Shown here: positions 1,591 through 15,817 of the stretch, in pieces
Numbering within the stretch: the stretch's first letter is position 1
How the letters are laid out: each line of letters opens with the position of its first letter
Origin: Bacteroidota bacterium
Lineage (GTDB): Bacteria; Bacteroidota; Bacteroidia; Bacteroidales; Prolixibacteraceae
Assembly (NCBI GenBank): GCA_030684645.1
Contig: JAUXUF010000179.1
Location: 1 to 40,278, forward strand
Direction: 5' to 3'
DNA length: 40,278 nucleotides
The notes under the pieces: model-generated
What the model was told of the DNA's origin: nothing
The model's input: the letters and a program-made list of their open reading frames with translations, nothing else
The model's database searches: none
Made by a program: the position numbers and the translations under genes

Positions 1591-2718
1591 ATGATTGGAG
1601 ATCAATCCCATTACCACATCGAAAATGACCCCGAATACTCGGGGTTAAATGTCAATCAGGGCATTGAACCGTTGCCATCGGTTAATGCTGATTCGGTAAA
1701 ACGGTTTTTGAAGAACAAGAAAAATCGTTCATTATCCATTCAGCAATATGTCGATGGAATCCTGAATGGTGATATTACCCTGTTAAGTCAGGCCGTTACT
1801 TTAGTCGAAAGTTCAAAACCCGAACATCAGGAGATTGCCCAGGACATCATTGTCAAATGCCTGCCATTCAGCGGAAATTCAGTTCGGATTGGTATTACAG
1901 GCGTTCCCGGAGTAGGCAAAAGCACCTTTATAGAGGCTATGGGAAAACACATAACCTCGCAAGGGAAAAAGCTGGCTGTTCTAGCTATTGATCCGAGCAG
2001 CGAGCGCACCAAAGGAAGTATTTTGGGAGACAAAACCCGAATGGAGGATCTTTCAACCGATCCGAATGCTTATATCCGCCCTTCCCCGGCAGCAGGTTCG
2101 TTGGGTGGAGTTGCCCGTAAAACACGAGAAACCATTATCTTGTGCGAAGCTGCAGGTTTTAACCACATCTTTATTGAAACCGTTGGTGTTGGACAAAGCG
2201 AAACAGCAGTACATTCGATGGTTGATTTTTTCCTTTTGCTGATGCTTTCAGGCGCCGGTGACGAATTGCAGGGAATTAAAAGGGGAATTATGGAAATGGC
2301 CGATGCGATAACCATTAACAAAGCCGATGGGAACAACATGGAGAAGGCCGCATTAGCCCGTATTCAATATCTGAACGCGTTGCACTTGTTTCCCGCAACC
2401 GAATCGGGATGGAAACCTAAAGTACTTACTTGTTCAGCCTACCTGAAAACCGGGATCAGCGAAATCTGGGATACCATTAATGAATACCTTGTTCTTGTAA
2501 AAAGCAATGCCTATTTTCAGCATCGGAGAAATGAGCAATCGAAATTCTGGATGTACGAAACCATAAACGAGCATCTCCGGAATAACTTTTATCAGAACGA
2601 ACAGATCAAAAAGCTGATGGTAGAATCGGAGAGAAAAGTGATGAAAGAAGAAATTTCATCGTTTGTAGCAGCGAAAAAAATACTCGACTTGTATGACCAA
2701 ATCAGGAAAAACAATTAA
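1591..2718 (+). CDS. meaB: Methylmalonyl-CoA mutase-associated GTPase MeaB (ArgK family)
   Basis: A SIMIBI-class G3E GTPase that escorts adenosylcobalamin into methylmalonyl-CoA mutase and protects the enzyme. It is cytosolic and belongs to the propionate/succinate branch. The P-loop GVPGVGKS lies at 104-111, followed by the conserved 'AIDPSS' region, the 'ETVGVGQSE' switch near residue 200, and the guanine-specificity motif NKAD near 243. The C-terminal about 60 residues form the helical dimerisation arm typical of the family. At 375 residues it is slightly longer than most homologues because of a roughly 40-residue N-terminal extension, and the start could be internal. The mutase genes are not in the window. 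A possible -7 element (TATTTTTG, 1528-1535) lies upstream without a clear -33. The downstream lipoprotein starts 22 bp after its stop. Confidence 0.95.
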   Translation: MIGDQSHYHIENDPEYSGLNVNQGIEPLPSVNADSVKRFLKNKKNRSLSIQQYVDGILNGDITLLSQAVTLVESSKPEHQEIAQDIIVKCLPFSGNSVRIGITGVPGVGKSTFIEAMGKHITSQGKKLAVLAIDPSSERTKGSILGDKTRMEDLSTDPNAYIRPSPAAGSLGGVARKTRETIILCEAAGFNHIFIETVGVGQSETAVHSMVDFFLLLMLSGAGDELQGIKRGIMEMADAITINKADGNNMEKAALARIQYLNALHLFPATESGWKPKVLTCSAYLKTGISEIWDTINEYLVLVKSNAYFQHRRNEQSKFWMYETINEHLRNNFYQNEQIKKLMVESERKVMKEEISSFVAAKKILDLYDQIRKNN

Positions 2719-2740
2719 CCAAAATAAAAAAATCACAGTA

Positions 2741-3841
2741 ATGAAAAAATTTATTGCAATTTTAGTACTTGCCCTGGCTATCGTTTCGTGTCAACCGGCA
2801 AAAAATGATTTTTCCATCAAAGGATCAATTGCCGGTGTTGAAACCGGCAAAGTTTATCTTCAAAAGCTGGTTGACGGACAACCACAAAGTTTGGATACCG
2901 CCGATGTTATTGGTGGCAAATTTTCGTTTAAGGGCAAAATGGAAATCCCGGATATCAGGTATCTCCGCCTGAATGAGCAAGACTATTTTGCCCAGTTCTT
3001 TCTCGACAATGCCAACATTAACGTGAAAGCCAATAAAGACAGCCTTCGCAGCACCAAAATTACCGGTTCACCTACGCAGGATGTTTTTCAGATTTACATC
3101 AGCGAAATGGAAAAGTTGAACAAAGAGATCATATCGCTTCAGGGAAAATATCGAACTGCCATGTCAACCGGAAATACCAGTGAGGCAGATAAAGCTGAAA
3201 TTGACTATAAGGCTATGCTTGATAATAACAAGGTTTACGCAAAGAATTTTGTTAAAGAACATTCCAATTCAGTAGTCGCAGCCTATATAGCTTTAGTTCA
3301 GCTATCCAACCAACTTGATGGCGCCGAGTTGGATTCGATTGCCAGCAAATTTGCCCCTGAAATCAGCAAGTCAGAATATGTGGTCAAATTAAAAGAAATT
3401 GTGGAGGAACAAAATAGGACATCTGTTGGTACTGTTGCTCCTGATTTTACGATGAATGACCCCGAAGGAAAGCCGGTACAATTATCATCCTTCCGCGGTA
3501 AGGTTGTACTGATCGATTTTTGGGCCGCCTGGTGCGCACCTTGCCGTCAGGAAAATCCAAATGTCGTAAAAGCCTACCAGCAATTCCACAGTAAAGGATT
3601 TGAAATCATTGGCGTTTCGCTCGACCGGGCCAAAGAAGACTGGGTCAAAGCTATTCAGGATGATCATCTTACCTGGACACAAGTTTCAGATCTGCAATAC
3701 TTTCAGAATGCAGTTGCCCGCTTGTATGGCGTAAATTCTATTCCTCAATCTTTCCTGCTCGATAAGGATGGGAAAATTATAGCAAAAGGCTTGAGGGGCG
3801 AACAACTGACGAAAAAACTGGCGGAATTGTTCCCGAATTAG
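2741..3841 (+). CDS. TlpA-like thiol-disulfide lipoprotein with DUF4369 domain
   Basis: A periplasm-facing thioredoxin-fold oxidoreductase anchored as a lipoprotein. I chose the ATG at 2741 because it starts a clear lipoprotein signal (MKKFIAILVLALAIVSC, lipobox AIVS|C). An in-frame ATG at 2693 lies inside meaB and would add 16 polar residues ahead of the signal. The N-terminal part (about 25-115) is a DUF4369 beta-domain, a helical linker covers 120-220, and the AhpC/TSA-thioredoxin domain occupies about 235-365. The redox motif is WCAPC at 264-268, preceded by the typical 'VLIDFWA' strand. Such Bacteroidota proteins are usually assigned to disulfide reduction or cytochrome maturation; which one applies here cannot be told. 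It is probably co-transcribed with meaB (22-bp gap). Confidence 0.93.
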   Translation: MKKFIAILVLALAIVSCQPAKNDFSIKGSIAGVETGKVYLQKLVDGQPQSLDTADVIGGKFSFKGKMEIPDIRYLRLNEQDYFAQFFLDNANINVKANKDSLRSTKITGSPTQDVFQIYISEMEKLNKEIISLQGKYRTAMSTGNTSEADKAEIDYKAMLDNNKVYAKNFVKEHSNSVVAAYIALVQLSNQLDGAELDSIASKFAPEISKSEYVVKLKEIVEEQNRTSVGTVAPDFTMNDPEGKPVQLSSFRGKVVLIDFWAAWCAPCRQENPNVVKAYQQFHSKGFEIIGVSLDRAKEDWVKAIQDDHLTWTQVSDLQYFQNAVARLYGVNSIPQSFLLDKDGKIIAKGLRGEQLTKKLAELFPN

Positions 3842-4273
3842 AACAAGGCAAAAGTAAATTTGAATATTCATATCAAAGGGTTGTACTTCGCTACACCCTT
3901 TGCTGTTACAGGCCGTCCCTTCAGGACTTTGACAATAAAAGCTTGCAGGTTATCGGGACAAGGGGCAAAGCCCCGAAATGTAAAAGCATAGGACAAAATG
4001 AAATGGAGTCCTATGACTATCATTTGTGCTGAGAGCATGAGTAGCATGAGTGCGAAAACCGTCCGTGAGAAAACGGTGTTTAAAAAGAACTCTTTGTATC
4101 GGACGGAATAGAAATGGACAATACCTCGAAGTTCAATATTTTTTATCGGCAAAAGTCGCTTAAAAGCGGCTTTTGCTATTCTGTTAAGTCTTGAAATATT
4201 GTTTCATGTAAAACTTTTCATCCTTCCGGAGTGTTATTATGCTGTTTGAATAAAAACTAAAAAACCGAATATA
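3842..4273. other. Structured 430-bp intergenic block, possible dispersed element
   Basis: I see no convincing gene here. The block is rich in paired elements: GGGGC-AAA-GCCCC (3962-3974), GTCC/GGAC around CTTCA near 3915-3927, CCGTCCG (4059-4065) pairing with CGGACGG (4100-4106), a tandem GCATGAG repeat (4035-4041 and 4044-4050), and a hairpin at 4149-4176. A 94-codon reading frame exists on the minus strand (4152-3868), but its Leu/Phe-rich product has no recognisable domain. The composition suggests a repeated non-coding element or a decayed mobile sequence rather than a gene. The promoter of the following dehydrogenase gene should lie in the last 80 bp. Confidence 0.45.
4149..4176 (+). 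terminator. Hairpin in intergenic block, weak terminator candidate
   Basis: Stem GCAAAAGTCGC (4149-4159) and GCGGCTTTTGC (4166-4176) with one G-T pair and a 6-nt loop. The following bases (TATTCTGTT) are only moderately T-rich, so termination is uncertain. It could be the end of a repeat element. Confidence 0.35.
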
Positions 4274-5861: not shown

Positions 5862-7463
5862 ATGAAGAAAATTGCTGTCTTAATTACCGGGACTTTTTTG
5901 TTGATGAACACTGCCTTTGCAGGTGGAATTTTAACAAATACCAACCAAAGTGCGCAATTTGCACGGATCCTCTCTCGTAATGCTTCCACCGATCTGGATG
6001 CAGTGTATTTTAACCCTGCCGGATTGACTCAACTGGAAAACGGATTTTATTTTGGACTCCACAACCAAACGATCTCCCAAACGAAAACGATTAGCAGTGA
6101 ATTCCCGCTTAAATACAGCGAATATATTGGAAAAGTAAGCGCACCGGTTTTTCCGACTGCCTTTGCTGTTTACAAACTCGACAACTGGGCTTTCTCAGCC
6201 GGGTTCGGACCCAATGGTGGTGGTGGTAGCGCCAAATATGACAAGGGGCTTCCTTCTTTCGAAAAACAAATAGCACGTCTTGTACCTGCTTTGTCTGGAT
6301 TATCAGCTCTGGGATATCCTGTTGCTGATTATGGAGTAGATATTTCGTTCGAAGGTACATCCGTATTCTGGGGAATACAGCTTGGTGCAACCTACAAAAT
6401 CAACGACATTTTATCGGTTTATGGTGGTGCACGTTATATGCCTTCCACAAATACATACAATGGCTACATTAAAAACATTCAACTTGGACCAAAAGGAGCA
6501 TTGGTAAATGGCAAAACCTACCTGATGGGCGCTGCAACTGTTGCAACAGCCAAAGCACAGGCAACTGCTGCCGGAGCTGCCAGCTTACAACCACTTGTAG
6601 CAGCCGGAGCCGGAGGTTATACCCTCGCTCAGGTAGAAGGCGCCGGTTATATTACTGCCGCACAGAGGGCACAAATTGAAGGAGGATTACTACAGCTCGG
6701 GGTGACACAAACACAAATTAATGTAATGCCTATTACTGCAGCCCAATCAACCTATTCAACTGCTTCTGCTACTCTTTCTGCTACAGCAAGTCAACTGAAT
6801 GCCAACAGTGCAGGTCTGGCCGATAAGAATGTTGATACCAAACAAACAGGAACCGGAATTACTCCAATTATCGGATTTGACATCAAGCTTGACAAGCTGA
6901 ACATTGGTCTGAAATACGAACATAAAACTACGCTGAAACTGACCAATGCCACCACCGTTGACGATACCGGACTGTTCCCCCACAAAGGCACCTCAAACAG
7001 TGATCTTCCGGCCATAATTGCCGGTGGAGCCGACTATAAAATCCTCAGTAACTTAAAAATTTCAGGTTCATTCGATATTTACCTGGATAAAAATGTAAAC
7101 TGGGGTAAAAATATTTATTTGCAGAACCGGACCATCGACAAAAACTATGTGGAACTGGCTTTGGGATTGGAGTACAATTTAAATGACAAGTTTGCCATCA
7201 GCGCTGGCTACCTGAATTCAAATACCGGCGTCAGCGAGCAATACCAGAGCGATTTCAGTTACAGCAACGATTCTTATACTGCTGGACTAGGATTTCAATG
7301 GAACCTGAATAAAAAATTAGTGCTGGATGCAGGTATGATGTTGACAACCTATAAAGACGCAAACAAATCCTTTACTGAACCAGCCCCATTTGGCACCTAT
7401 TCCGAAACCTACGGAAAAGACACGTTCACCTTTGCTTTTGGACTTGGCTACAAGATTTTCTAG
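5862..7463 (+). CDS. OmpP1/FadL-family outer-membrane channel with an Ala-rich insert
   Basis: An outer-membrane beta-barrel related to E. coli FadL, expected to admit hydrophobic compounds such as long-chain fatty acids or aromatic hydrocarbons. A signal peptide (MKKIAVLITGTFLLMNTAFA) is followed by the family's hatch signature 'DAVYFNPAGLTQL' near residues 47-59. The barrel continues to a C-terminal aromatic residue (GLGYKIF), as expected for BAM recognition. Residues about 215-325 form an insert very rich in Ala, Thr, Gln and Gly, predicted helical, where most FadL homologues have a short loop. This makes the protein 533 residues, longer than the common 420-480. The substrate cannot be read from the sequence. 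It is a single-gene unit between terminators at 5713 and 7551. Confidence 0.92.
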   Translation: MKKIAVLITGTFLLMNTAFAGGILTNTNQSAQFARILSRNASTDLDAVYFNPAGLTQLENGFYFGLHNQTISQTKTISSEFPLKYSEYIGKVSAPVFPTAFAVYKLDNWAFSAGFGPNGGGGSAKYDKGLPSFEKQIARLVPALSGLSALGYPVADYGVDISFEGTSVFWGIQLGATYKINDILSVYGGARYMPSTNTYNGYIKNIQLGPKGALVNGKTYLMGAATVATAKAQATAAGAASLQPLVAAGAGGYTLAQVEGAGYITAAQRAQIEGGLLQLGVTQTQINVMPITAAQSTYSTASATLSATASQLNANSAGLADKNVDTKQTGTGITPIIGFDIKLDKLNIGLKYEHKTTLKLTNATTVDDTGLFPHKGTSNSDLPAIIAGGADYKILSNLKISGSFDIYLDKNVNWGKNIYLQNRTIDKNYVELALGLEYNLNDKFAISAGYLNSNTGVSEQYQSDFSYSNDSYTAGLGFQWNLNKKLVLDAGMMLTTYKDANKSFTEPAPFGTYSETYGKDTFTFAFGLGYKIF

Positions 7464-7550
7464 ATTCAAGTAAAAAGTAAAAAGGCAAAAACGCTGAATA
7501 GAAGTAATACATCTTAAATTACATTCTTCAGTGAAATTGACTACACATTC

Positions 7551-7587
7551 AAAAGGTGCTTATTGATCGCAATAAGCACCTTTTTTG
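7551..7587 (+). terminator. Rho-independent terminator after the FadL-type gene
   Basis: Perfect 14-bp stem AAAAGGTGCTTATT (7551-7564) and AATAAGCACCTTTT (7571-7584) with a 6-nt loop and T tract. Confidence 0.93.
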
Positions 7588-7623
7588 TTTGCCGGAAAAC
7601 ATCCTCTATATATTCCAACTTCG

Positions 7624-7655
7624 ATTGTATAGCGCTGAAGATTGATCTATCTTTG
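7624..7655 (+). promoter_or_regulatory. Bacteroidota housekeeping promoter for the lycopene cyclase-kinase unit
   Basis: A -33 element ATTG (7624-7627; consensus TTTG) and a perfect -7 element TATCTTTG (7648-7655; consensus TAnnTTTG) are separated by 20 nt, within the normal 19-21. The start codon follows 38 bp later. This is the best-formed promoter of this type in the window. Confidence 0.6.
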
Positions 7656-7693
7656 TTGCCTGAATAAATTCCCTGGATACCAAAATTTAGATA

Positions 7694-8383
7694 ATGGAAC
7701 TTAAAAATTACACCTACCTGCTCTTGTTGCTTTTTACAATCGCCGGGCCTTTGGTCATGAGTTTCGAAAAGCAGATTCAGTATTACCGGAAGCTGAAATA
7801 TATCCTTCCGGCTATTCTGATTACCGCAGCCTTTTTCCTGATTTGGGACATCCGGTTTACAGAAGCAAATATCTGGAGTTTTAATTTCGAAAATACAATC
7901 GGGATCGTTTATAAAGGTTTGCCGCTGGAAGAATGGCTCTTCTTCATTGTCATCCCTTATGCGTGTATATTCATTTATGAAGTGACCAAAGTCTATTTAA
8001 AAAAATACGAATACCCGAATGTTTTTGTGGCTTTCAGCTTGCTTCTGATTGTCGCATTTGCTATGATCAGCTATTTTTTCAGGCACCAGGCATACACATT
8101 TCTGACTTTCCTCTTTTCAGCGGTTTTTCTCACCTACACAGTCTTCCGGAACAGGTTCAAACCACACATGACCAAATTCTACTTCGCCTATTTCATTTCG
8201 ATCGTACCGTTTGCGTTGGTTAACGGATTGCTCAATTCGCTGGATGTTTTTGTCTGTAACAAAACCCAGATACTGAACATCAAGATATTGAACTTTCCTG
8301 TCGAAGATTTTGGCTATTTATTCCTGATGCTTCTGATGGTGACCACCATTTATGAGACTCTGAAGGAAAGCAAATATTATTAG
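7694..8383 (+). CDS. Lycopene cyclase domain-containing membrane protein (CrtYc/CrtYd type)
   Basis: A 229-residue integral membrane protein with about seven hydrophobic segments. It contains two copies of the lycopene cyclase domain. The first has 'FLIWDIRFTEANIWSFN', then 'GLPLEEWLFFIVIPYAC' near residues 76-92. The second has 'NFPVEDFGYLFLMLL' near 200-214. The PxE(E/D) motifs carry the acidic residues held essential in CrtYc/CrtYd cyclases, which form beta- or epsilon-ionone rings on lycopene. This copy is the fused single-chain form. No phytoene synthase or desaturase gene is nearby, so involvement in carotenoid or another isoprenoid pathway is inferred from family only. The stop codon is 14 bp before the histidine kinase gene, so the two are likely one transcript. 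Confidence 0.85.
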   Translation: MELKNYTYLLLLLFTIAGPLVMSFEKQIQYYRKLKYILPAILITAAFFLIWDIRFTEANIWSFNFENTIGIVYKGLPLEEWLFFIVIPYACIFIYEVTKVYLKKYEYPNVFVAFSLLLIVAFAMISYFFRHQAYTFLTFLFSAVFLTYTVFRNRFKPHMTKFYFAYFISIVPFALVNGLLNSLDVFVCNKTQILNIKILNFPVEDFGYLFLMLLMVTTIYETLKESKYY

Positions 8384-8397
8384 CGATATATCATTTG

Positions 8398-10803
8398 ATG
8401 AAGAAATTAAAGATTGAAATACAGGTTATCCTTTTAACATTCTGCATCGCGGTTGCAGTGATTGTTTCAGGGTATCTGGCTTATCAAAGCCTTTCTGAAA
8501 TTGTTGAAACCATCCACAAGGAAGCACGTCCCGATCTCAAATTACTCCTGATTAAGGATATTGCATCCGATTTAAATGAAGTCGAAAATACAATCCGCCT
8601 TTACAGTCTGACCGGAGACACATCGTTCCTTCATCCGTACCGGCAACTTGATGCCGCCATTCAGGGAAAGCTAAACACACTGACCGGTTATGCTATTCCC
8701 GGTTCAAGTGAAATTATTCATATTGATTCCATTGCGTTACTTGCCAATCGGAAACTGCTGATCTGGGATGAAATCAGGGCACTTCATCACTCGAAAACTA
8801 ATGCGCACAATACGTTTTCAAGTCTCTATTCCAGAATTGATACTGTCATCATTCAACCCGACACAATCAGGTTTAAACCGGAAGAGCAAAAAGGATTCTT
8901 CAAACGGATTTTCAGCAAAAAAGATACAACAACGAGGCAACCTGTTATCATCAATAAAGCCAAAGAAAAGGAAATCCTCAAAAAAGAAATTGCCGGCATT
9001 GAACAGCAAATCACCAATCAAACCAAACGATTGCAAACCAAAGAAATGGTTTTGCTCGAACAGAACATTCAGTTAACCAAAACTCTGAACCAACATATTA
9101 CAAGTCTTGAAAACAGCGAACAAAAACGTCTGGAAACGAAAACACAGGAAGCTGATTCTTTGGCAGCACAAACCTACCGGCGAATGGCCATTTTTACCAT
9201 TGCAGCCGTAATCCTGTTGATCATTATTCTGATCCTGTTCTTCCGGAACCTCCGGAAAAACAGAACTTACCAGCAAGTGCTGAGAAAAGCAAAAGCTGAA
9301 GCCGAAAACCTGGCCAAAGCCAAAGAAATGTTTGTGGCAACGGTCAGCCACGAAATGAGAACGCCGGTAAACGCCATCTACGGGCTGACCGAACAGATGC
9401 TTCAGAAAACAAATTCGGATGAAACGACTGCCGATCTGAAAGTTGTGCAAAAATCTGCAGAACACCTGATTGCGCTGGTAAACGACACCCTTGATTTCTC
9501 GAAAATCGAATCTCAGAAATTAAAAATTGAGCAAATAGATTTTTTACCTGATGAAATTATTACTGAGGTTCATACCCTGCATAAAGATTCGGCACAAAAA
9601 AAGGGCCTTGAATTGATTTTCAACAACAATACTGATAAAAATCTGGTTCTCCAGGGAGATCCGATCAGGCTGAAACAAATCCTGATCAATCTGATTACCA
9701 ACGCCATTAAATTCACCAACCAGGGGCAAATCACACTGATAGTTTCCGGAGAGGAAACTTCGGAACAAAATTACCTGTTACACATTGAAGTTTCGGACAC
9801 CGGTATTGGCATTTCAAAAGAAGACCTGCACCTGATTTTTGATGAGTTTGTACAATTGAATACCGATCTCACCCAAAAACAGCGCGGCGCCGGACTGGGA
9901 CTGTCCATCGTAAAAAAACTGGTTCTTCTCCAAAATGGGAAAATTGATGTCGATAGTTCCTTCGGAAAAGGAACTCGTTTTACATTACAAATACCTTATC
10001 AAAAAGGAAATCCGGACAATATGAAAAAACAATCGGTTGAACAGCTGCAAATCCCATCCTGGTTCCGGAAACTCCATTTTCTGATTGTTGATGACGAAGA
10101 ATTCAACCTTTATCTGATCAAAAACATCCTAAAAAAATGGGGAGTGTCGTTTACCGAGGCGAATAACGGACAGGAAGCCGTTGAACTCGTGGTGAAAAAT
10201 TCGTATGACTTGGTTCTTATGGACATCCAGATGCCGGTAATGGATGGATTTGAGGCAACCAGACTGATTTTGCAGCATTGTCCATCGTCCAAAATTATTG
10301 CCTTGACTGCCACCTCTAAGCCAGCAGATATTCAAAAGATAGAGATGACCGGAATACACGCCTATTTACTGAAGCCATTTGCTGAATCAGCCTTGCTCAA
10401 TACCATCCTGAAACTACTTCCGGAGAAAAACGAGAAATCCAATCAGGAAACAATTGAAAAGGAAACAACGATCGATCTGGATGAACTGGAACGGATTTCA
10501 GGAGGCGACACCGCTTTTTTCAATGAGATGCTGAGAATTTTTATCCGTTCGAGCGAAGAAACATTAGTCAGATTCCAGCAAAATTTTCAAAGCGCAGACT
10601 GGAGTGCCATCACTGAAACGGCCCATAAACTTGCAGCCCCGGCGAAACATTTACAAGCAACCACGCTTTACCATCATTTAAAGAAACTTGAAAACACCAC
10701 TGAAAACAGTAATCTGGAAGAGCTGAAGAAACTGATCGGGGTAATCGAACTGGAAATCAATCGCATCAATTCCATCCTGAAACAAAAACTAGAAGAAGGA
10801 TAA
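8398..10803 (+). CDS. Membrane-bound hybrid sensor histidine kinase with REC and Hpt domains
   Basis: An 801-residue sensor kinase. Transmembrane segments lie at about 8-30 and 263-285. They bracket a 230-residue periplasmic sensor with a long charged coiled-coil (about 160-250) and no named sensor fold that I recognise. The HisKA domain has the phospho-acceptor H318 in 'VSHEMRTP'. The ATPase domain has an N box 'NLITNAIKF', G1 'DTGIGI' and G2 'GAGLGLS'. The receiver has acidic 'VDDEE', D609 in 'LMDIQMPVMDG' and a Lys in 'LLKPF'. The C-terminal Hpt domain has H743 in 'ETAHKLAAPAKH'. The complete His-Asp-His relay could feed the adjacent NtrC-type regulator. A TTG three bases upstream is an alternative start; ATG at 8398 is preferred. 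Confidence 0.95.
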   Translation: MKKLKIEIQVILLTFCIAVAVIVSGYLAYQSLSEIVETIHKEARPDLKLLLIKDIASDLNEVENTIRLYSLTGDTSFLHPYRQLDAAIQGKLNTLTGYAIPGSSEIIHIDSIALLANRKLLIWDEIRALHHSKTNAHNTFSSLYSRIDTVIIQPDTIRFKPEEQKGFFKRIFSKKDTTTRQPVIINKAKEKEILKKEIAGIEQQITNQTKRLQTKEMVLLEQNIQLTKTLNQHITSLENSEQKRLETKTQEADSLAAQTYRRMAIFTIAAVILLIIILILFFRNLRKNRTYQQVLRKAKAEAENLAKAKEMFVATVSHEMRTPVNAIYGLTEQMLQKTNSDETTADLKVVQKSAEHLIALVNDTLDFSKIESQKLKIEQIDFLPDEIITEVHTLHKDSAQKKGLELIFNNNTDKNLVLQGDPIRLKQILINLITNAIKFTNQGQITLIVSGEETSEQNYLLHIEVSDTGIGISKEDLHLIFDEFVQLNTDLTQKQRGAGLGLSIVKKLVLLQNGKIDVDSSFGKGTRFTLQIPYQKGNPDNMKKQSVEQLQIPSWFRKLHFLIVDDEEFNLYLIKNILKKWGVSFTEANNGQEAVELVVKNSYDLVLMDIQMPVMDGFEATRLILQHCPSSKIIALTATSKPADIQKIEMTGIHAYLLKPFAESALLNTILKLLPEKNEKSNQETIEKETTIDLDELERISGGDTAFFNEMLRIFIRSSEETLVRFQQNFQSADWSAITETAHKLAAPAKHLQATTLYHHLKKLENTTENSNLEELKKLIGVIELEINRINSILKQKLEEG

Positions 10804-10819
10804 TTTCAAATCAAATATT

Positions 10820-10834
10820 TTCTCAAAATGAGAA
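10820..10834. promoter_or_regulatory. Palindrome TTCTCA-N3-TGAGAA ahead of the sigma-54 activator gene
   Basis: Perfect 6-bp arms TTCTCA (10820-10825) and TGAGAA (10829-10834) with a 3-nt AAA spacer, between the kinase and activator genes. It shares its architecture, and most of each arm, with the TTTATCA-N3-TGATAAA palindromes upstream of the two sigma-54 promoters. It could be a weaker site for the same activator (autoregulation) or an RNA hairpin. No T tract follows, so it is not a typical terminator. Confidence 0.4.
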
Positions 10835-10912: not shown

Positions 10913-12268
10913 ATGCCCGAAAAAGCCTTCAAAATATTTGTCGTTGAGGATGATGAATGGTACAACCGCCTGCTCGTTCATACCTTGTCCCTCAATCCCG
11001 ATTACGAAATACAATCCTTTACCACCGGAAAAGACTGCCTGGCCAATTTATACCAGGAACCGGATGTAATTACCCTGGATTACCGGCTTCCCGACATGAA
11101 AGGGTTGGAAGTATTGAAACAGATCAAGGAAATTAACGAAGACATCCAGATCATTCTTATTTCGGAACAAGATGATATTGAGGTGGTGGTCTCGTTATTA
11201 AGACTCGGCGCCTTTGATTACATTGTTAAGTCGAAAGACATCCGGGAACGGTTGCTGAATACGGTTAGCAACATCAGGCAGGGTAGCAACCTGAAAAAGG
11301 AAATTGTGACCTTGAGGCAGGAGGTCAAAAAGAAATATACTGACCAAGGCACCATCATCGGCAACAGCGCTGCTACGCGGAAAGTATATGAACTGATTGA
11401 GAAAGCTACCCGAACCAACATCACAGTAACCATTACCGGAGAAACCGGTACCGGTAAAGAACTGGTGGCCAAAGCGATACATTATAATTCAAACCGTTCG
11501 AAACAACCGTTTATCCCCGTTAATGTTGCAGCAATTCCCAGAGAGTTGATTGAAAGTGAACTTTTCGGGCACGAAAAAGGCGCTTTCACAGGGGCAGCTT
11601 TCCGCCGGATTGGTAAGTTCGAAGAAGCCAACGGTGGTACATTATTTCTCGACGAAATAGCCGAAATGGAGATTTCCCTTCAGGCAAAATTGCTGCGCGC
11701 CCTTCAGGAAAGAGAAATTATCCGGATAGGTAGCAACACACCCGTAAAATTTGATTGCCGGATCATCATTGCAACCAATAAAGATTTGCTGGAAGAAATC
11801 AAGAAAGGAAATTTCAGGCAGGACCTCTATTACCGGTTATATGGCCTTCCCATCGAATTACCACCTTTGCGCGAACGTGAAAATGATGTGATTATATTGG
11901 CCAGGCACTTTATAAACGTATTCTGCAAGGAGAACAAAATGGCCCCAAAAACTTTAACCCCCGAGGCCTCAACCCGTTTGCTCACCTATTCATTTCCCGG
12001 AAATATCCGCGAATTAAAGTCGGTGATCGAACTGGCAGTCACACTGGCCGATCAGGATGAAATATCCGCCGAGTATATTGTTTTGGGCAGAGGGCCGGAT
12101 TTACTCGATGACTTATTCAGCCAGGAACTCAGCCTCCGGGAATATGATATCCGGATCGTCAGAAAGTTTCTCGACAAATATGATAACAACATCAAACTGG
12201 TGGCCGAAAAATTGGATCTTGGAGTGGCAACCATCTACCGGATGTTGAAGGAAGACAATAAAGAATAG
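10913..12268 (+). CDS. Sigma-54-dependent response regulator (NtrC family)
   Basis: A 451-residue enhancer-binding protein that, when phosphorylated, should remodel sigma-54 RNA polymerase. The receiver domain (about 5-120) has the acidic pair in 'VVEDDE', phospho-acceptor D56 in 'ITLDYRLPDMKG' and a Lys in 'YIVKSKD'. The AAA+ domain has Walker A GETGTGKE at 176-183, the sigma-54-contacting loop GAFTGA at 223-228, Walker B 'GTLFLDEI' and 'FRQDLYYRL'. The C-terminal Fis-type helix-turn-helix is 'VAEKLDLGVATIYRML' at about 431-446. It sits 109 bp after the hybrid kinase, its likely phosphodonor system. The two sigma-54 promoters downstream (12393 and 13727), each with a conserved palindrome at the same distance, are its obvious targets. 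Confidence 0.96.
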   Translation: MPEKAFKIFVVEDDEWYNRLLVHTLSLNPDYEIQSFTTGKDCLANLYQEPDVITLDYRLPDMKGLEVLKQIKEINEDIQIILISEQDDIEVVVSLLRLGAFDYIVKSKDIRERLLNTVSNIRQGSNLKKEIVTLRQEVKKKYTDQGTIIGNSAATRKVYELIEKATRTNITVTITGETGTGKELVAKAIHYNSNRSKQPFIPVNVAAIPRELIESELFGHEKGAFTGAAFRRIGKFEEANGGTLFLDEIAEMEISLQAKLLRALQEREIIRIGSNTPVKFDCRIIIATNKDLLEEIKKGNFRQDLYYRLYGLPIELPPLRERENDVIILARHFINVFCKENKMAPKTLTPEASTRLLTYSFPGNIRELKSVIELAVTLADQDEISAEYIVLGRGPDLLDDLFSQELSLREYDIRIVRKFLDKYDNNIKLVAEKLDLGVATIYRMLKEDNKE

Positions 12269-12288
12269 AACATCTTCAGTTTATGAAA

Positions 12289-12327
12289 TTTATCAATTAA
12301 GGATTATTTTTTTATCATTTTGATAAA
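12289..12327. promoter_or_regulatory. Upstream activator site A (half-site plus palindrome)
   Basis: Half-site TTTATCA at 12289-12295 is followed 22 bp later (start to start) by the perfect palindrome TTTATCA-TTT-TGATAAA at 12311-12327. The palindrome begins 83 bp before the -24 GG of the promoter at 12393, a normal enhancer distance. The same arrangement recurs at 13624-13661. It is inferred to bind the adjacent NtrC-type regulator. Confidence 0.7.
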
Positions 12328-12392
12328 ACAAGACTTCATCAAAATCCATATATAACTTTAATTAACAGGACTTTAACGCAATGTCTTCATAA

Positions 12393-12408
12393 TGGCACAG
12401 GCATTGCT
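12393..12408 (+). promoter_or_regulatory. Sigma-54 promoter A (-24/-12)
   Basis: TGGCAC-AGGCA-TTGCT matches the sigma-54 consensus, with GG at 12394-12395 and GC at 12406-12407 exactly 10 bp apart. The expected start point is about 12418. Downstream come a leader hairpin, a remnant of the coiled-coil gene, and the AraC-type regulator gene, which this promoter probably drives. The 16 bases are identical to promoter B at 13727. Confidence 0.88.
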
Positions 12409-12429
12409 TTGCCTTTTTCTGAAATCGAA

Positions 12430-12448
12430 CAGCACCCATAAAGTGCTG
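12430..12448 (+). other. Leader hairpin A
   Basis: Perfect stem CAGCAC (12430-12435) and GTGCTG (12443-12448), starting about 12 nt after the predicted start point of sigma-54 promoter A. It is followed by a GATCnTTAAAACAA block shared with leader B. Confidence 0.5.
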
Positions 12449-12486
12449 ATCCTTAAAACAAATAATTATTTTAACTCTTAATTTTT

Positions 12487-12636
12487 GAAATCGAAAACAA
12501 TTTGAAATTAATAAAAGAAAAAAGGAACCAAATCTCGATGGTTCAATCAGAAGGTGGCAAAAACAGAAAACAGGCAATTATTGACGACATCAATCTGTTG
12601 AACAACCTGGTAGAAGGAAACCATAAAAAAATTTAA
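12487..12636 (+). pseudogene. Truncated remnant of the sigma-54-controlled coiled-coil gene
   Basis: From 12487 to 12633 this stretch aligns without a gap to 14065-14211 of the intact gene at 13867, covering its residues 67-115. Both read EIE-NL-IKEKRNQI-M, then SEGGKNRKQ and IIDDI at matching positions. A TAA at 12634-12636 stands where the intact gene has GCC (Ala116). The start codon, transmembrane anchor and whole C-terminal half are absent. An internal ATG at 12538 would give only 32 residues (MVQSEGGKNRKQAIIDDINL and 12 more). It follows an intact sigma-54 promoter and leader, so the RNA is probably still made. A functional small protein cannot be excluded. Confidence 0.8.
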
Positions 12637-12676
12637 CGAACCATTGAACTAAATATTAACCTAAAATTGAAATCAT

Positions 12677-13255
12677 TTGAAACTATACATTAAATACATG
12701 GTTAGCAACCGATGCAAAGTAGCAGTTAAAGATGAGTTGAAAAAACTAGGGCTGCACTATATACTGGTTGATCTGGGAGAAGTAGAGATCATGGAAAATC
12801 TCTCGGATAAAGCACGGGAGCATGTAAAGGCTGCTTTATTTAGCATCGGATTTGAATTAATGGACGATAAACGTTCGGTGTTGATTGAAAGAATAAAAAA
12901 TACAATTATTGAAATGATCCATCATTCGAACGAAATAATCAAAACAAATTTTTCCATTTTTTTAAGCGAAAAATTAAACTACGATTATACTTATCTGGCC
13001 AATTTATTTTCGGAAGTGCAGGGAATTACAATTGAGCAATTCATCATCTCTCACAAAATTGAAAAAATTAAAGAATTGATTATTTACGGAGAACTAAACA
13101 TTACCGAAATTGCATGGAAGATGAATTACAGCAGTGTAGCACACCTATCCAACCAATTTAAGAAAATGGCAGGTCTTACACCTTCACATTTTAAACAATT
13201 GAAAGAAAAAAGACGAAGCCCGATTGATGAGATTGGAAATAAAATGATGAATTAA
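12677..13255 (+). CDS. AraC-family helix-turn-helix regulator (short Bacteroidota type)
   Basis: A 192-residue transcription factor. The N-terminal about 60 residues (MKLYIKYMVSNRCKVAVKDE onward, with 'LGLHYILVDLGEVEI') form the small domain seen in a common Bacteroidota group of AraC proteins. The C-terminal 85-180 region is the double helix-turn-helix, with 'LNYDYTYLANLFSEVQG' as the first motif and 'LNITEIAWKMNYSSVAHLSN' then 'FKKMAGLTPSHFKQL' as the second. I use a TTG start because it restores the family's usual MKLYIK N-terminus; the next ATG would remove it. It lies 269 bp downstream of sigma-54 promoter A with only a gene remnant between, so it may be a second-tier regulator induced by the kinase/activator pair. 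Its ligand and targets are unknown. Confidence 0.9.
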   Translation: MKLYIKYMVSNRCKVAVKDELKKLGLHYILVDLGEVEIMENLSDKAREHVKAALFSIGFELMDDKRSVLIERIKNTIIEMIHHSNEIIKTNFSIFLSEKLNYDYTYLANLFSEVQGITIEQFIISHKIEKIKELIIYGELNITEIAWKMNYSSVAHLSNQFKKMAGLTPSHFKQLKEKRRSPIDEIGNKMMN

Positions 13256-13398
13256 AAGGCATAACAGAAGGAATAAAATGGAAAGAACAGAAGCAGGAAC
13301 AAACTCGATTTCCATTTGTAAATACGATTTCAGATAAAAAATCTGAAACATCATTAATTCAGGAACAGAAACCACCAATTCAACCCGGTGTTACCTGT
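13256..13398 (+). other. Region after the AraC gene with an 8-bp hairpin
   Basis: Perfect hairpin TTTCAGAT (13328-13335), loop AAAAA, ATCTGAAA (13341-13348). A 19-codon frame beginning at ATG 13278 with an upstream AGAAGGA could be translated (MERTEAGTNSISICKYDFR), but nothing else supports it. Confidence 0.35.
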
Positions 13399-13435
13399 AA
13401 GGCTGCTACGGTTATTTCCGGGCAGCCTTTTTAAA
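13399..13435 (+). terminator. Terminator after the AraC-type gene
   Basis: Stem AAGGCTGC (13399-13406) and GCAGCCTT (13422-13429), with an inner CGG/CCG pair in the loop, followed by TTTAAATTTT. It separates the AraC unit from the next sigma-54 module. Confidence 0.75.
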
Positions 13436-13468
13436 TTTTGCACGGACGGTTTTTTTTGATTCTTTCCT

Positions 13469-13551
13469 ACCCGGGGCGCCACTTCCCGAATTCCCGGGAT
13501 CGTTTGCCCCGGGCTACAAATCCCACAGCCGACGGATCGCCCATACTGGGC
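13469..13551. repeat. REP-like GC-rich palindromic element
   Basis: CCCGGGGC (13470-13477) pairs perfectly with GCCCCGGG (13506-13513), and a nested TTCCCG/CGGGAT palindrome lies between. A second stem GCCCA-TAC-TGGGC follows at 13539-13551. The GC-rich run is sharply different from its AT-rich surroundings. The 'CCCCGGGCTACAAAT' type of sequence resembles repetitive extragenic palindromes I know from Bacteroidota genomes. Only one copy is in the window, so repetition is inferred. Confidence 0.5.
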
Positions 13552-13623
13552 TGAACCCCCAATGCGCCAAAGTTAATCGTTTATGGGCTGTATTCTTGAT
13601 ATACTGAGGGTCCCTTATTCAAA

Positions 13624-13661
13624 TTTATCAATTCAGGATTAATCTTTATCATTTTGATAAA
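13624..13661. promoter_or_regulatory. Upstream activator site B (half-site plus palindrome)
   Basis: Half-site TTTATCA at 13624-13630 and palindrome TTTATCA-TTT-TGATAAA at 13645-13661, which begins 83 bp before the -24 GG of the promoter at 13727. Sequence and spacing match site A almost exactly (half-site offset 21 against 22). Confidence 0.7.
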
Positions 13662-13726
13662 ATTTGATTCTTTCACTTTTCACACAATGAATTAACAAAC
13701 AACACTTTAACACATTTTCATTCAAT

Positions 13727-13742
13727 TGGCACAGGCATTGCT
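13727..13742 (+). promoter_or_regulatory. Sigma-54 promoter B (-24/-12)
   Basis: TGGCAC-AGGCA-TTGCT, with GG at 13728-13729 and GC at 13740-13741, 10 bp apart. The expected start point is about 13752, leaving a leader of about 115 nt before the coiled-coil gene at 13867. The core is identical to promoter A. Confidence 0.88.
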
Positions 13743-13757
13743 ATCCCTTATTGCGAA

Positions 13758-13824
13758 ATCAAACAGCGCTAAAGTGTGTGAACCGGATTATTACAAGAAA
13801 GAAGTGCTAAAGTGACTGTTTGAT
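13758..13824 (+). other. Structured leader B with long-range stem
   Basis: ATCAAACAG (13758-13766) is perfectly complementary to CTGTTTGAT (13816-13824) and would close a stem over almost the whole leader. Within it an imperfect direct repeat occurs, AGCGCTAAAGTGTGTG and AGTGCTAAAGTGACTG (near 13765 and 13803). The left arm starts within a few bases of the predicted transcript start. A role in RNA stability or translation control is inference. Confidence 0.5.
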
Positions 13825-13860
13825 CTTTAAAACAATTAAAAATTCATTTACTTAATAGAA

Positions 13861-14053
13861 TATGACATGGAAAACAAAAACAAAACACAGTTAGTGACAA
13901 TCATTATTGCAGGTTTAATTTTGATTGTCGGAATCGTTGGCGGAGTGTATGTTTATAACCAAAAGGAAGCAGAAATCAAATCCTTGATGGTTGAAAAGAC
14001 TAACACAAACCAAATGATCCAACAGAAAGATTCGATCATGTATGACATGGAAA
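13861..14053 (+). repeat. 13-bp direct repeat at the start codon and inside the coiled-coil gene
   Basis: TATGACATGGAAA occurs at 13861-13873, overlapping the start codon, and again at 14041-14053. The copies are exactly 180 bp (60 codons) apart. Recombination between them would remove the start and membrane anchor in frame and leave a start codon at residue 61. Confidence 0.7.
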
Positions 14054-14778
14054 GCACTTTTAATGAAATCGAAAGCAATCTGAAGACCATAAAAGAAAAA
14101 AGAAATCAAATCGCCATGGTACCATCAGAAGGTGGCAAAAACAGAAAACAGGTAATTATTGACGACATTAAAATGCTGGACAATTTGATGGATGAAAACA
14201 ATAGAAAAATTGCCGACCTGGAGCAGAAACTAAGAAAATCAGGATTGAACATGAAATCTTATGAAAAAAGACTTCAGAGTTTAACTGCAACTATCGAAAG
14301 CCAGAATACTGAAATTGCCGAATTGAAAACGATGATTGAAAACAAAAATATCACTCTGGCAGAGTTGGACTCCAGGATCCAAAACCTGAATTCTGATATG
14401 CAAAGACAGTCTGATACCATCAGTTACAAGCAAAAACAGATTGTGGATAAAACGGATAAGCTAAACACAGCTCATTATGCACTTGGAACCTTCAAGGAGC
14501 TAAAAAAAGAAGGCATACTTAACCGCGAAGGTGCAATCCTTGGAATTGGCGGAGATAAAGCAATTCAGGGAAATTTTGATCCGAAATATTTTACTGAACT
14601 TGACATTCGCAAAACAAAAACAATCCCTTTAAATGCAAGAAAAGCCGTTGTGATTTCAGAACATCCAAGCAGCTCCTATAAGTTGGTTGAAGAAAACGGA
14701 CAGATAGCTTACCTGCAAATCGAAAACCCGGAAGAATTCTGGAGAATTTCGAAATATGCCGTCATTCAGGTAAAATAA
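13867..14778 (+). CDS. Membrane-anchored coiled-coil protein under sigma-54 control
   Basis: A 303-residue protein of unknown function. One transmembrane segment (about 9-30, TIIIAGLILIVGIVGGVYVY) follows a short polar N-terminus. A long heptad-rich coiled coil (about 33-205) comes next, and then a compact C-terminal domain (about 206-303) with 'ELKKEGILNREGAILGIGG', 'FTELDIRKTKTIPL' and 'VISEHPSSSYKLVE'. The topology suggests an inner-membrane anchor with the coiled coil and terminal domain in the periplasm. The C-terminal domain resembles that of proteins widespread in Bacteroidota and usually left as hypothetical; I cannot name its function. Promoter B and its activator site precede it. 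A DUF4382 lipoprotein gene follows after 82 bp and is probably co-expressed. Confidence 0.88.
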   Translation: MENKNKTQLVTIIIAGLILIVGIVGGVYVYNQKEAEIKSLMVEKTNTNQMIQQKDSIMYDMESTFNEIESNLKTIKEKRNQIAMVPSEGGKNRKQVIIDDIKMLDNLMDENNRKIADLEQKLRKSGLNMKSYEKRLQSLTATIESQNTEIAELKTMIENKNITLAELDSRIQNLNSDMQRQSDTISYKQKQIVDKTDKLNTAHYALGTFKELKKEGILNREGAILGIGGDKAIQGNFDPKYFTELDIRKTKTIPLNARKAVVISEHPSSSYKLVEENGQIAYLQIENPEEFWRISKYAVIQVK

Positions 14779-14860
14779 TAGAACCTTGTACGATCGCATT
14801 TGTTTATACATCAATGAAACATATTACCAAATCCAAATTTATAAATTTAAAATTACAAAC

Positions 14861-15817
14861 ATGAAAACAAAAATTTTTCTTTTTACATTAACCGTATTTG
14901 TATCGTTAGTGTCAGTTCAATGTTCAAAAGATGAAGGAACACAAAACCCAAACAATGGACAACTCTCGGTTAAAATCACGGATGCCCCTTCGGATGACGC
15001 CAATATTCAGGCCACTTTTGTCACAATTGCTGATGTGAAAGTTGATGGACAATCCATGAAAGGCTTTCAAAAACAGACTGTTAGAATTTCTGACCTTCAA
15101 TCCGGAAAAACCCAGGTATTATTTTCAGGCGACGTTCAGGCTAATACTTACAGCAATATTTCGCTGGTTATGGATTACGAGAAAGATGCATCAGGAAATG
15201 CACCCGGCTGTTATGTTTTGGATAAAGCAAATGCCAAACACAACTTAAACGCTTCATCTTCAACAACGGGCGAAATTAAGCTTGATAAAAGTTTCCTGGT
15301 TACAGCCAGTGGTTCCAGCAATTTGATTATTGATTTTGACCTAAGAAAATCGATTGTTTACAATGCAAATTCGACTGAATCTCAGAAATACAAGTTTGTT
15401 ACTGAAGCCGAATTAAAAAGTTCACTGCGCGTGGAAAGTCAGGAAAAGTGTGGCGACATTAAGGGTAAAGCAAGTAACTATTCGAGCAATAGTGATTTGA
15501 TTGTTTATGCTTATCACAAAGGTCAATATAATGCAAGCACAGAAACCCAGGGACAGGGAAGCAGCAGTGTCACTTTCGCCAAGGCTGTTACCAGTTCAAA
15601 AGTAAATACTGACGGAACTTACCAACTTTCATTTTTGAACGAAGGGGACTATGAAATCCATGTGGCCTCTTATAGTAAAGATGCCGCTAGCGGTAAGTTG
15701 ACCTTCAATGGAATGGCAAATGCAAACAGTATGATATCTGGATTGCTAATGAATAGTATATCGGTTTCAGCTAATGCCAACATCGAATTGAATTTCAATA
15801 TTTCAATTCTTCCCTAA
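14861..15817 (+). CDS. DUF4382 domain lipoprotein
   Basis: A 318-residue cell-surface or periplasmic lipoprotein. I start at ATG 14861, which gives a classical lipoprotein signal (MKTKIFLFTLTVFVSLVSVQC, Cys at 21); a TTG at 14786 would place 25 charged residues ahead of it. The DUF4382 domain covers about 33-180 and begins with the family's 'GQLSVKITDAPSDD', then 'VTIADVKVDG' and 'SNLIIDFDLRKSIV'. The C-terminal 190-318 region looks like a carboxypeptidase-regulatory-type beta-sandwich ('GDIKGKASNYSS', 'GTYQLSFLNEGDYEIHV'). Function is unknown; such domains occur in surface proteins. It has no promoter of its own that I can see and follows the sigma-54-driven gene by 82 bp, so it is probably part of that unit. 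Confidence 0.88.
   Translation: MKTKIFLFTLTVFVSLVSVQCSKDEGTQNPNNGQLSVKITDAPSDDANIQATFVTIADVKVDGQSMKGFQKQTVRISDLQSGKTQVLFSGDVQANTYSNISLVMDYEKDASGNAPGCYVLDKANAKHNLNASSSTTGEIKLDKSFLVTASGSSNLIIDFDLRKSIVYNANSTESQKYKFVTEAELKSSLRVESQEKCGDIKGKASNYSSNSDLIVYAYHKGQYNASTETQGQGSSSVTFAKAVTSSKVNTDGTYQLSFLNEGDYEIHVASYSKDAASGKLTFNGMANANSMISGLLMNSISVSANANIELNFNISILP

Follow-up and report, generated by a model that had tools for sequence, protein, structure and literature searches.

A predicted two-component sigma-54 circuit for envelope proteins with copied promoter modules in a Prolixibacteraceae genome

Several described systems come close to the one considered here. PEP-CTERM surface proteins are under the control of PrsK/PrsR and RpoN, a two-component NtrC-type regulatory pair acting with sigma-54 and a predicted upstream enhancer (PMC9850573). 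In Flavobacterium psychrophilum, sigma-54 promoters have been mapped, including that of remFG-sprCDBF, and one of them was confirmed by mutation (PMC9723704). Cbp1 of Bacteroides fragilis is a collagen-binding lipoprotein and the source of the collagen-binding name of its protein family (PMC3949742). More generally, predicted sigma-54 trends have been reported by phylum (PMC12316311), and the cell exterior has been proposed as a common theme of sigma-54 (PMC3162934), a theme that fits the predicted outputs described below. Here we analyse a locus in 40,278 nt of DNA from a Bacteroidota bacterium of the family Prolixibacteraceae (contig JAUXUF010000179.1, assembly GCA_030684645.1; the whole stretch is called the window). 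In this locus a hybrid sensor histidine kinase, an NtrC-type response regulator (the activator) and a Cbp1-family coiled-coil protein (Cbp) are encoded together with two sigma-54 promoter modules, P1 and P2. A previous reading of the same DNA from its letters alone (the sequence-only reading) had called sigma-54 circuits in Bacteroidota little characterised. This is fair, but not absolute in view of the promoters mapped in F. psychrophilum (PMC9723704). No account of the present circuit was among the matches listed from the open-licence literature on Bacteroidota sigma-54/RpoN, and no assigned DNA site for a Bacteroidota sigma-54 activator was found in that literature.

The predicted circuit belongs to the known NtrC-type two-component sigma-54 kind, within which it is unusually legible, with its rewiring visible. 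With PrsK/PrsR it shares the two-component NtrC-type regulator, sigma-54, a link to surface proteins and a predicted upstream enhancer; PrsK/PrsR, however, belongs to another phylum (PMC9850573), the kinase here is a hybrid with receiver and phosphotransfer (Hpt) domains, and the activator aligns end to end with the PrsR model TIGR02915 at only 353.8 bits, below its cut-off of 502.6. As in F. psychrophilum, we deal with Bacteroidota -24/-12 promoters of the kind found at envelope, gliding and adhesin genes, but the genes are different, and the available passages of that paper assign no activator to a binding site (PMC9723704). The activator also resembles the NtrC/ZraR/AtoC group of bacterial enhancer-binding proteins (bEBPs) in having a receiver, an AAA+ domain with GAFTGA and a predicted C-terminal helix-turn-helix, but it reaches the cut-off of none among the 25 listed of 99 matched NCBIfam models. 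Finally, Cbp shares the NF052320 family with B. fragilis Cbp1 and shows a coiled coil and a C-terminal domain in the structure model made here; it differs in having a transmembrane anchor where Cbp1 is a lipoprotein, and sigma-54 is not mentioned in the available parts of the Cbp1 paper (PMC3949742).

We propose, at a probability of about 0.82, a dedicated two-component sigma-54 circuit for envelope proteins, with rewiring at P1 and P2 and with autoregulation. The membrane kinase would sense a signal and pass phosphate along a His-Asp-His route to the NtrC-type regulator, which in turn would bind a palindrome of the TT[A/C]TCA-N3-TGA[T/G]AA type ~82 bp ahead of the -24 element. A distal half-site would assist this binding; several other genera would use a second palindrome instead. 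Conservation and known bEBP biology suggest that it would then remodel sigma-54 RNA polymerase at TGGCAC-N5-TTGC. The main target would be the next gene, encoding the membrane-anchored Cbp1-family protein, to which some genomes would add a DUF4382 lipoprotein and an AraC-type regulator; in this genome P2 would drive Cbp and DUF4382, with P1 as the presumed promoter ahead of AraC. The regulator would also control its own synthesis through a palindrome in the gap between the kinase and activator genes.

The two modules consist of the following elements:

12289..12295, + strand: distal half-site TTTATCA of P1, read from the sequence
12311..12327, no strand assigned: predicted enhancer palindrome of P1, exact TTTATCATTTTGATAAA
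12393..12408, + strand: sigma-54 -24/-12 core of P1, exact TGGCACAGGCATTGCT; predicted transcription start (+1) at ~12419
13624..13630, + strand: distal half-site TTTATCA of P2, read from the sequence
13645..13661, no strand assigned: predicted enhancer palindrome of P2, exact TTTATCATTTTGATAAA
13727..13742, + strand: sigma-54 -24/-12 core of P2, exact TGGCACAGGCATTGCT; predicted +1 at ~13753

The sequence-only reading had placed the same 16-base sigma-54 core at 12393 and 13727, a TTTATCA half-site and a TTTATCA-N3-TGATAAA palindrome at each promoter, and each palindrome 83 bp before the GG of the -24 element. Cores, palindromes and this distance (82 bp when counted to the TGG) are indeed exact at both promoters, and the half-sites lie 22 bp (P1) and 21 bp (P2) upstream of the palindrome, a spacing that differs by one base. 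Both cores are of the GG-N10-GC, TGGCAC-N5-TTGC type that is kept in relatives. In 200 first-order Markov (Markov-1) sequences matched to the window in length and composition we found neither the exact palindrome nor the composite of palindrome and core, and the sigma-54 core is expected 0.08 times per sequence, against 2 observed. With up to three mismatches allowed, the palindrome has 12 matches in the window compared to a mean of 5.9 in shuffled sequences (1 of 100 shuffles reached 12), so that most of these weak matches mean little; the exception is a match at 10819, which is conserved in relatives. A sigma-70 consensus scan gave 17 matches, with a shuffle mean of 16.0. In the genome itself (5.2 Mb in 408 contigs, 99.4% complete) one rpoN match lies above the Pfam cut-off (174.5 bits) and a second, of 20.6 bits, below it.

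Absence of the palindrome from related genomes, which the sequence-only reading had held to count against it, was not observed: in 19 of 19 same-genus genomes with a readable Cbp promoter, including P2 itself, the palindrome lies 82 bp before the TGG. We aligned the regions upstream of 26 of 30 Cbp loci (L077-L080 were left out), and in all 24 modules that carry a sigma-54 core the palindrome stands at 81-84 bp, including modules from five further genera (G024, G036, G031, G030 and G027). The two loci not counted in the 24, L075 (G035) and L076 (G023), lack a module in the usual position. Within the genus, conservation is much higher in the site (1.59 bits per column) and the core (1.74) than in the spacer (0.53; 17 of the 19 rows, L069 and L063, a near copy of L062, being left out); for the distal TATCA the value is 1.04-1.23. 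Between core and start codon the 19 loci have anywhere from 109 to 147 bp. From ten named loci we examined the five that are more distant, L046-L050. The module is present in four of them, the nearest site starting 80-82 bp before the TGG (partly read by eye); counted from the 15-base form, the distances are 79, 79, 81 and 80 bp in L046, L047, L048 and L050. In L046 (5610-5780) and L050 (3680-3900) a small lipoprotein-like gene separates the core from Cbp, and L049 contains Cbp with neither a site nor an activator ortholog within the 12.8 kb examined. Palindrome pairs 19 bp apart are present in L047 and L048 (Maribellus maritimus), in G031, G030 and G027, and beside the activator of G023. Two palindromes at such a distance would suit two dimers of an NtrC-type activator. 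The M. maritimus locus also has the activator gene (74%) and a core ahead of Cbp.

The proteins that would act on these modules are encoded directly upstream:

8395..10803, + strand: hybrid sensor histidine kinase with CHASE3-like sensor, HisKA, HATPase_c, receiver and Hpt domains
10913..12268, + strand: NtrC-type response regulator with receiver, AAA+ domain containing GAFTGA, and predicted C-terminal helix-turn-helix

The GAFTGA-containing activator next to the promoters and the kinase with the domains of a full His-Asp-His relay, both expected from the sequence-only reading, were recovered by domain searches, the CHASE3 match of the kinase staying at 26.1 bits, under the cut-off of 28. GAFTGA or GSFTGA is present in 29 of 30 aligned activator homologs, with GSFTDA in a single 57% homolog. 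The order kinase-activator-Cbp is kept across six genera. At loci with a site, the activator orthologs have the recognition helix GVATIYRM or GVATVYRM and the best sites beside them score 10-12 of 12; in three homologs of 55-57% identity the helix differs and the best nearby site scores 8-9 of 12. In G023, where Cbp is 12 kb away from the activator, each of the two genes has a site next to it; the one that directly follows the activator (L145 4439-4650, G023:C35) consists of a palindrome pair and a sigma-54-like TGGCCT-N5-TTGC core, and the one ahead of Cbp of a palindrome and a poorer core. Site and activator can also be missing together: G035 (84% complete) has a Cbp ortholog, with no close activator ortholog found and no site. 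No close ortholog of either activator or Cbp was found in the assemblies of G009 and G020.

A genome search for palindrome plus core, of the kind proposed in the sequence-only reading, returned P1 and P2 only: no other composite with 40-70 bases from palindrome to core, or with the 41-101 bases of the relaxed scan below, was found in the genome, which suggests a local regulon. In a strict scan of the genus we found 10 matches in 9 of 23 genomes, all of them at this locus, with 1 match in the reversed control. A relaxed scan (41-101 bases) gave 27 matches spread over 20 of the 23 genomes: 19 belong to this locus, 2 to a module in trans, and 6 lie elsewhere (G016:C208, G009:C30, G009:C90, G019:C23, G003:C4 and G006:C142). 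These six were set aside since they lie fully or with one end within open reading frames (ORFs), differ in span and lack such a leader. Isolated TTTATCA-N3-TGATAAA palindromes in the genome were likewise rejected as further targets, as 10 sites with one mismatch against 8 in the reversed control are chance-like.

The two modules are not independent of each other, and their history can be followed in the genes behind them:

12484..12633, + strand: remnant of a Cbp1-like gene with both ends deleted, recognised by similarity to the coiled-coil gene
12677..13255, + strand: predicted P1 output, an AraC-type regulator whose N-terminal domain is HMA-like
13867..14778, + strand: Cbp1-family coiled-coil protein with N-terminal membrane anchor, main predicted output
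14861..15817, + strand: DUF4382 lipoprotein with a lipobox-like ...SVQC; the ORF opens at 14786, and the ATG ahead of the signal sequence is at 14861

What follows P2 is found again behind P1, in one stretch of 148 bases (82% identity) and another of 76 bases (76%). A row of Cbp, DUF4382 and AraC genes follows the activator in G015, G008, G010 and G014 (4 of 20 annotated loci). Parts 1-224, 426-577 and 2267-3059 of the G008 unit align to window positions 12268-12482, 12482-12633 and 12643-13431, and its part 19-2228 aligns to 13622-15817. By this alignment the stretch from P1 to AraC resembles a promoter-Cbp-DUF4382-AraC operon with two internal deletions of ~0.2 and ~1.7 kb. P1 therefore looks like the relic of a deleted operon in which little of Cbp and nothing of DUF4382 remains, and now stands ahead of AraC, and P2, judged by the same alignment, is an intact second promoter-Cbp-DUF4382 copy without AraC. 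In a tree, P1 groups with G010/G014/G008 (support 99/98) and P2, more weakly, with G002 (89/91), which indicates that the copies are not recent. All compared bases of site (18/18) and core (16/16) are identical between P1 and P2, but only 34 of 63 in the spacer; such identity despite a diverged spacer speaks for selection on both. On one point the sequence-only reading has to be corrected: its twin promoters are copies of one module rather than separate evidence, P1 being a deleted relic. Its idea of a compact circuit of kinase, activator and sigma-54, whose site can be read, is supported by the palindrome kept at a constant distance in same-genus relatives.

Copies also occur in trans. The module is found with its exact span at G019:C42 (L204) and G009:C53 (L205) before a gene for a PAS-domain histidine kinase, together with the leader and a vestige of the start of Cbp. 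In G019 this gene is intact, and besides HisKA and HATPase its product has several PAS domains and a weaker match to GAF. The upstream neighbour of the kinase gene was found in 10 of 23 genomes; in the 8 other than G019 and G009, among them the genome studied here, there is no module within 1.5 kb behind this neighbour. Like P1, the trans module thus appears as a copy now standing before another regulator. We consider, as a tentative idea with a little less than even odds, that the enhancer-promoter-leader stretch is a copied cassette that draws other regulators in, namely the HMA-like AraC here and the multi-PAS kinase in G019 and G009.

The weak palindrome match at 10819 corresponds to a third palindrome, which, like the trans copy, is absent from the sequence-only reading:

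10820..10834, no strand assigned: TTCTCA-N3-TGAGAA, TTCTCAAAATGAGAA, predicted autoregulatory site in the kinase-activator gap

A palindrome related to the enhancer that precedes the regulator gene suggests that the regulator controls its own synthesis, and autoregulation through this site is likely. Of 20 same-genus close orthologs, 18 carry TT[AC]TCA-N3-TGA[TG]AA in this gap. The palindrome is followed by a conserved block like AAAACTTACTAACTTGC, which resembles the -7 element of Bacteroidota promoters. The site might instead serve a different factor, since the half-sites in the gap are mostly TTCTCA/TGAGAA rather than TTATCA/TGATAA; besides, G004 lacks it, G001 and G021 have it in degenerate form, and among six orthologs from other genera only G036 carries it. 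However, the gap of G018, G011 and G017 contains the mixed form TTATCA-N3-TGAGAA, which shares the right half of most enhancers, and the enhancer of G005 is itself TTTCTCA-N3-TGAGAAA. The exact TTCTCA-N3-TGAGAA is moreover concentrated in this gap, with 13 of the 20 copies in 23 genomes, against 1 at the G005 enhancer and 6 elsewhere, the number also found in the reversed control. We thus regard a separate factor as rather doubtful, if a serious contender.

Doubts of a similar kind apply to the enhancer palindrome. We infer the binding of the activator to it, and another regulator, e.g. the AraC protein or a global factor, could be the one that binds, with the activator acting elsewhere. Isolated palindromes near the control rate would agree with this, as would G009, which keeps the trans module although its assembly yielded no activator ortholog. 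Yet AraC is present in only 4 of 20 annotated loci and the palindrome in far more, and the presence of the site largely tracks the activator ortholog and its recognition helix, which makes this explanation quite improbable. A stronger case can be made for P1 being a dead relic that survived by chance or through recent origin, with AraC read from another promoter: P1 precedes a deleted Cbp fragment, and close AraC paralogs elsewhere in the genus have no module in the up to 260 upstream bases examined. On the other hand, the spacers have diverged while site and core have not, the tree separates the two modules, AraC is intact, and in G019 the trans copy likewise precedes an intact gene; we hold a dead P1 to be unlikely. 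The proposed circuit itself faces further contrary observations. In addition to the gaps in the distribution of the third palindrome and the case of G009, the core before Cbp in G023 begins with AGG and its site lies at 101 bp; G004 has an activator (72%) with the recognition helix GVSTIYRM and a distant Cbp (36%), with no site at either and a best site score of 9; and the G005 enhancer does not fit the TTATCA pattern. The Fis-type HTH_8 match of the activator is 16.0 bits, under the cut-off of 22. As for the extent of the regulon, the composite scans covered 40-101 bases from palindrome to core, so that farther enhancers escape them, and chance does not fully explain the six off-locus matches, for which the reversed control gave 0.

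The sequence-only reading had named a coiled-coil protein, a DUF4382 lipoprotein and an AraC-type regulator as outputs, none with a known role. All three genes were found, but the coiled-coil protein is a member of the Cbp1 family (NF052320, 221.4 bits against a cut-off of 90). Read from the sequence, its membrane segment has no lipobox cysteine; its model (pLDDT 81.8, pTM 0.41) contains long helices and a C-terminal beta domain, a fold search with the model gave no match at E <= 0.001, and sequence-profile matches were mostly to generic coiled coils. A second, lipoprotein-like Cbp member is present in the genome (C142, 30% identical). The N-terminal domain of the AraC protein (window 12677-12860) has a beta-alpha-beta-beta-alpha-beta order and resembles copper chaperones (Atx1, E 0.05); at the position of the CxxC seen in 6 of the 17 proteins aligned, it reads SxxC. 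The protein is nearest to a paralog located elsewhere in relatives (93%, compared to 87% for the operon type) and its flanks match the operon type, a mismatch that gene conversion may explain.

The P2 transcript may in addition begin with a structured leader:

13756..13827, + strand: putative 5'-leader hairpin of the P2 transcript, with weak to moderate support

The hairpin begins a few bases after the predicted P2 start and shows some compensatory changes in relatives. In an alignment without L063, the near copy, and the leaders from other genera, 79.8% of cells are paired, with at most 40.9% in slid versions; after shuffling, however, the mean is 77.5%, and 6 of 500 shuffles were as high. 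RNAalifold predicted no pairs on this alignment. The mean folding z-score is -1.6, with 15 of 22 genus modules under -1, P2 itself at -0.92 and G005 at +0.48.

Upstream of the kinase (window 5862-8383) lie genes for a FadL-type outer membrane protein and a lycopene-cyclase-domain protein, relatives of which precede the kinase in 10 and 9 of 15 same-genus loci, respectively. An Rfam Acido-Lenti-1 RNA match is found at window 3961-4015 on the - strand (37.5 bits, gathering score 37).

Taken together, a candidate binding site can be read here from a phylogenetic footprint, and both co-occurrence and the identity of the recognition helix link it to one activator. As the regulon apparently comprises one locus, the chain from kinase to envelope protein should be testable at small scale, and since the module is also present in a named strain, Maribellus maritimus 5E3, such a test may not be confined to metagenome-derived genomes. 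From the copied modules one sees how a circuit of this kind may gain members through promoter duplication and deletion. If the cassette idea is true, one local switch would grow into a regulatory cascade through promoter duplication.

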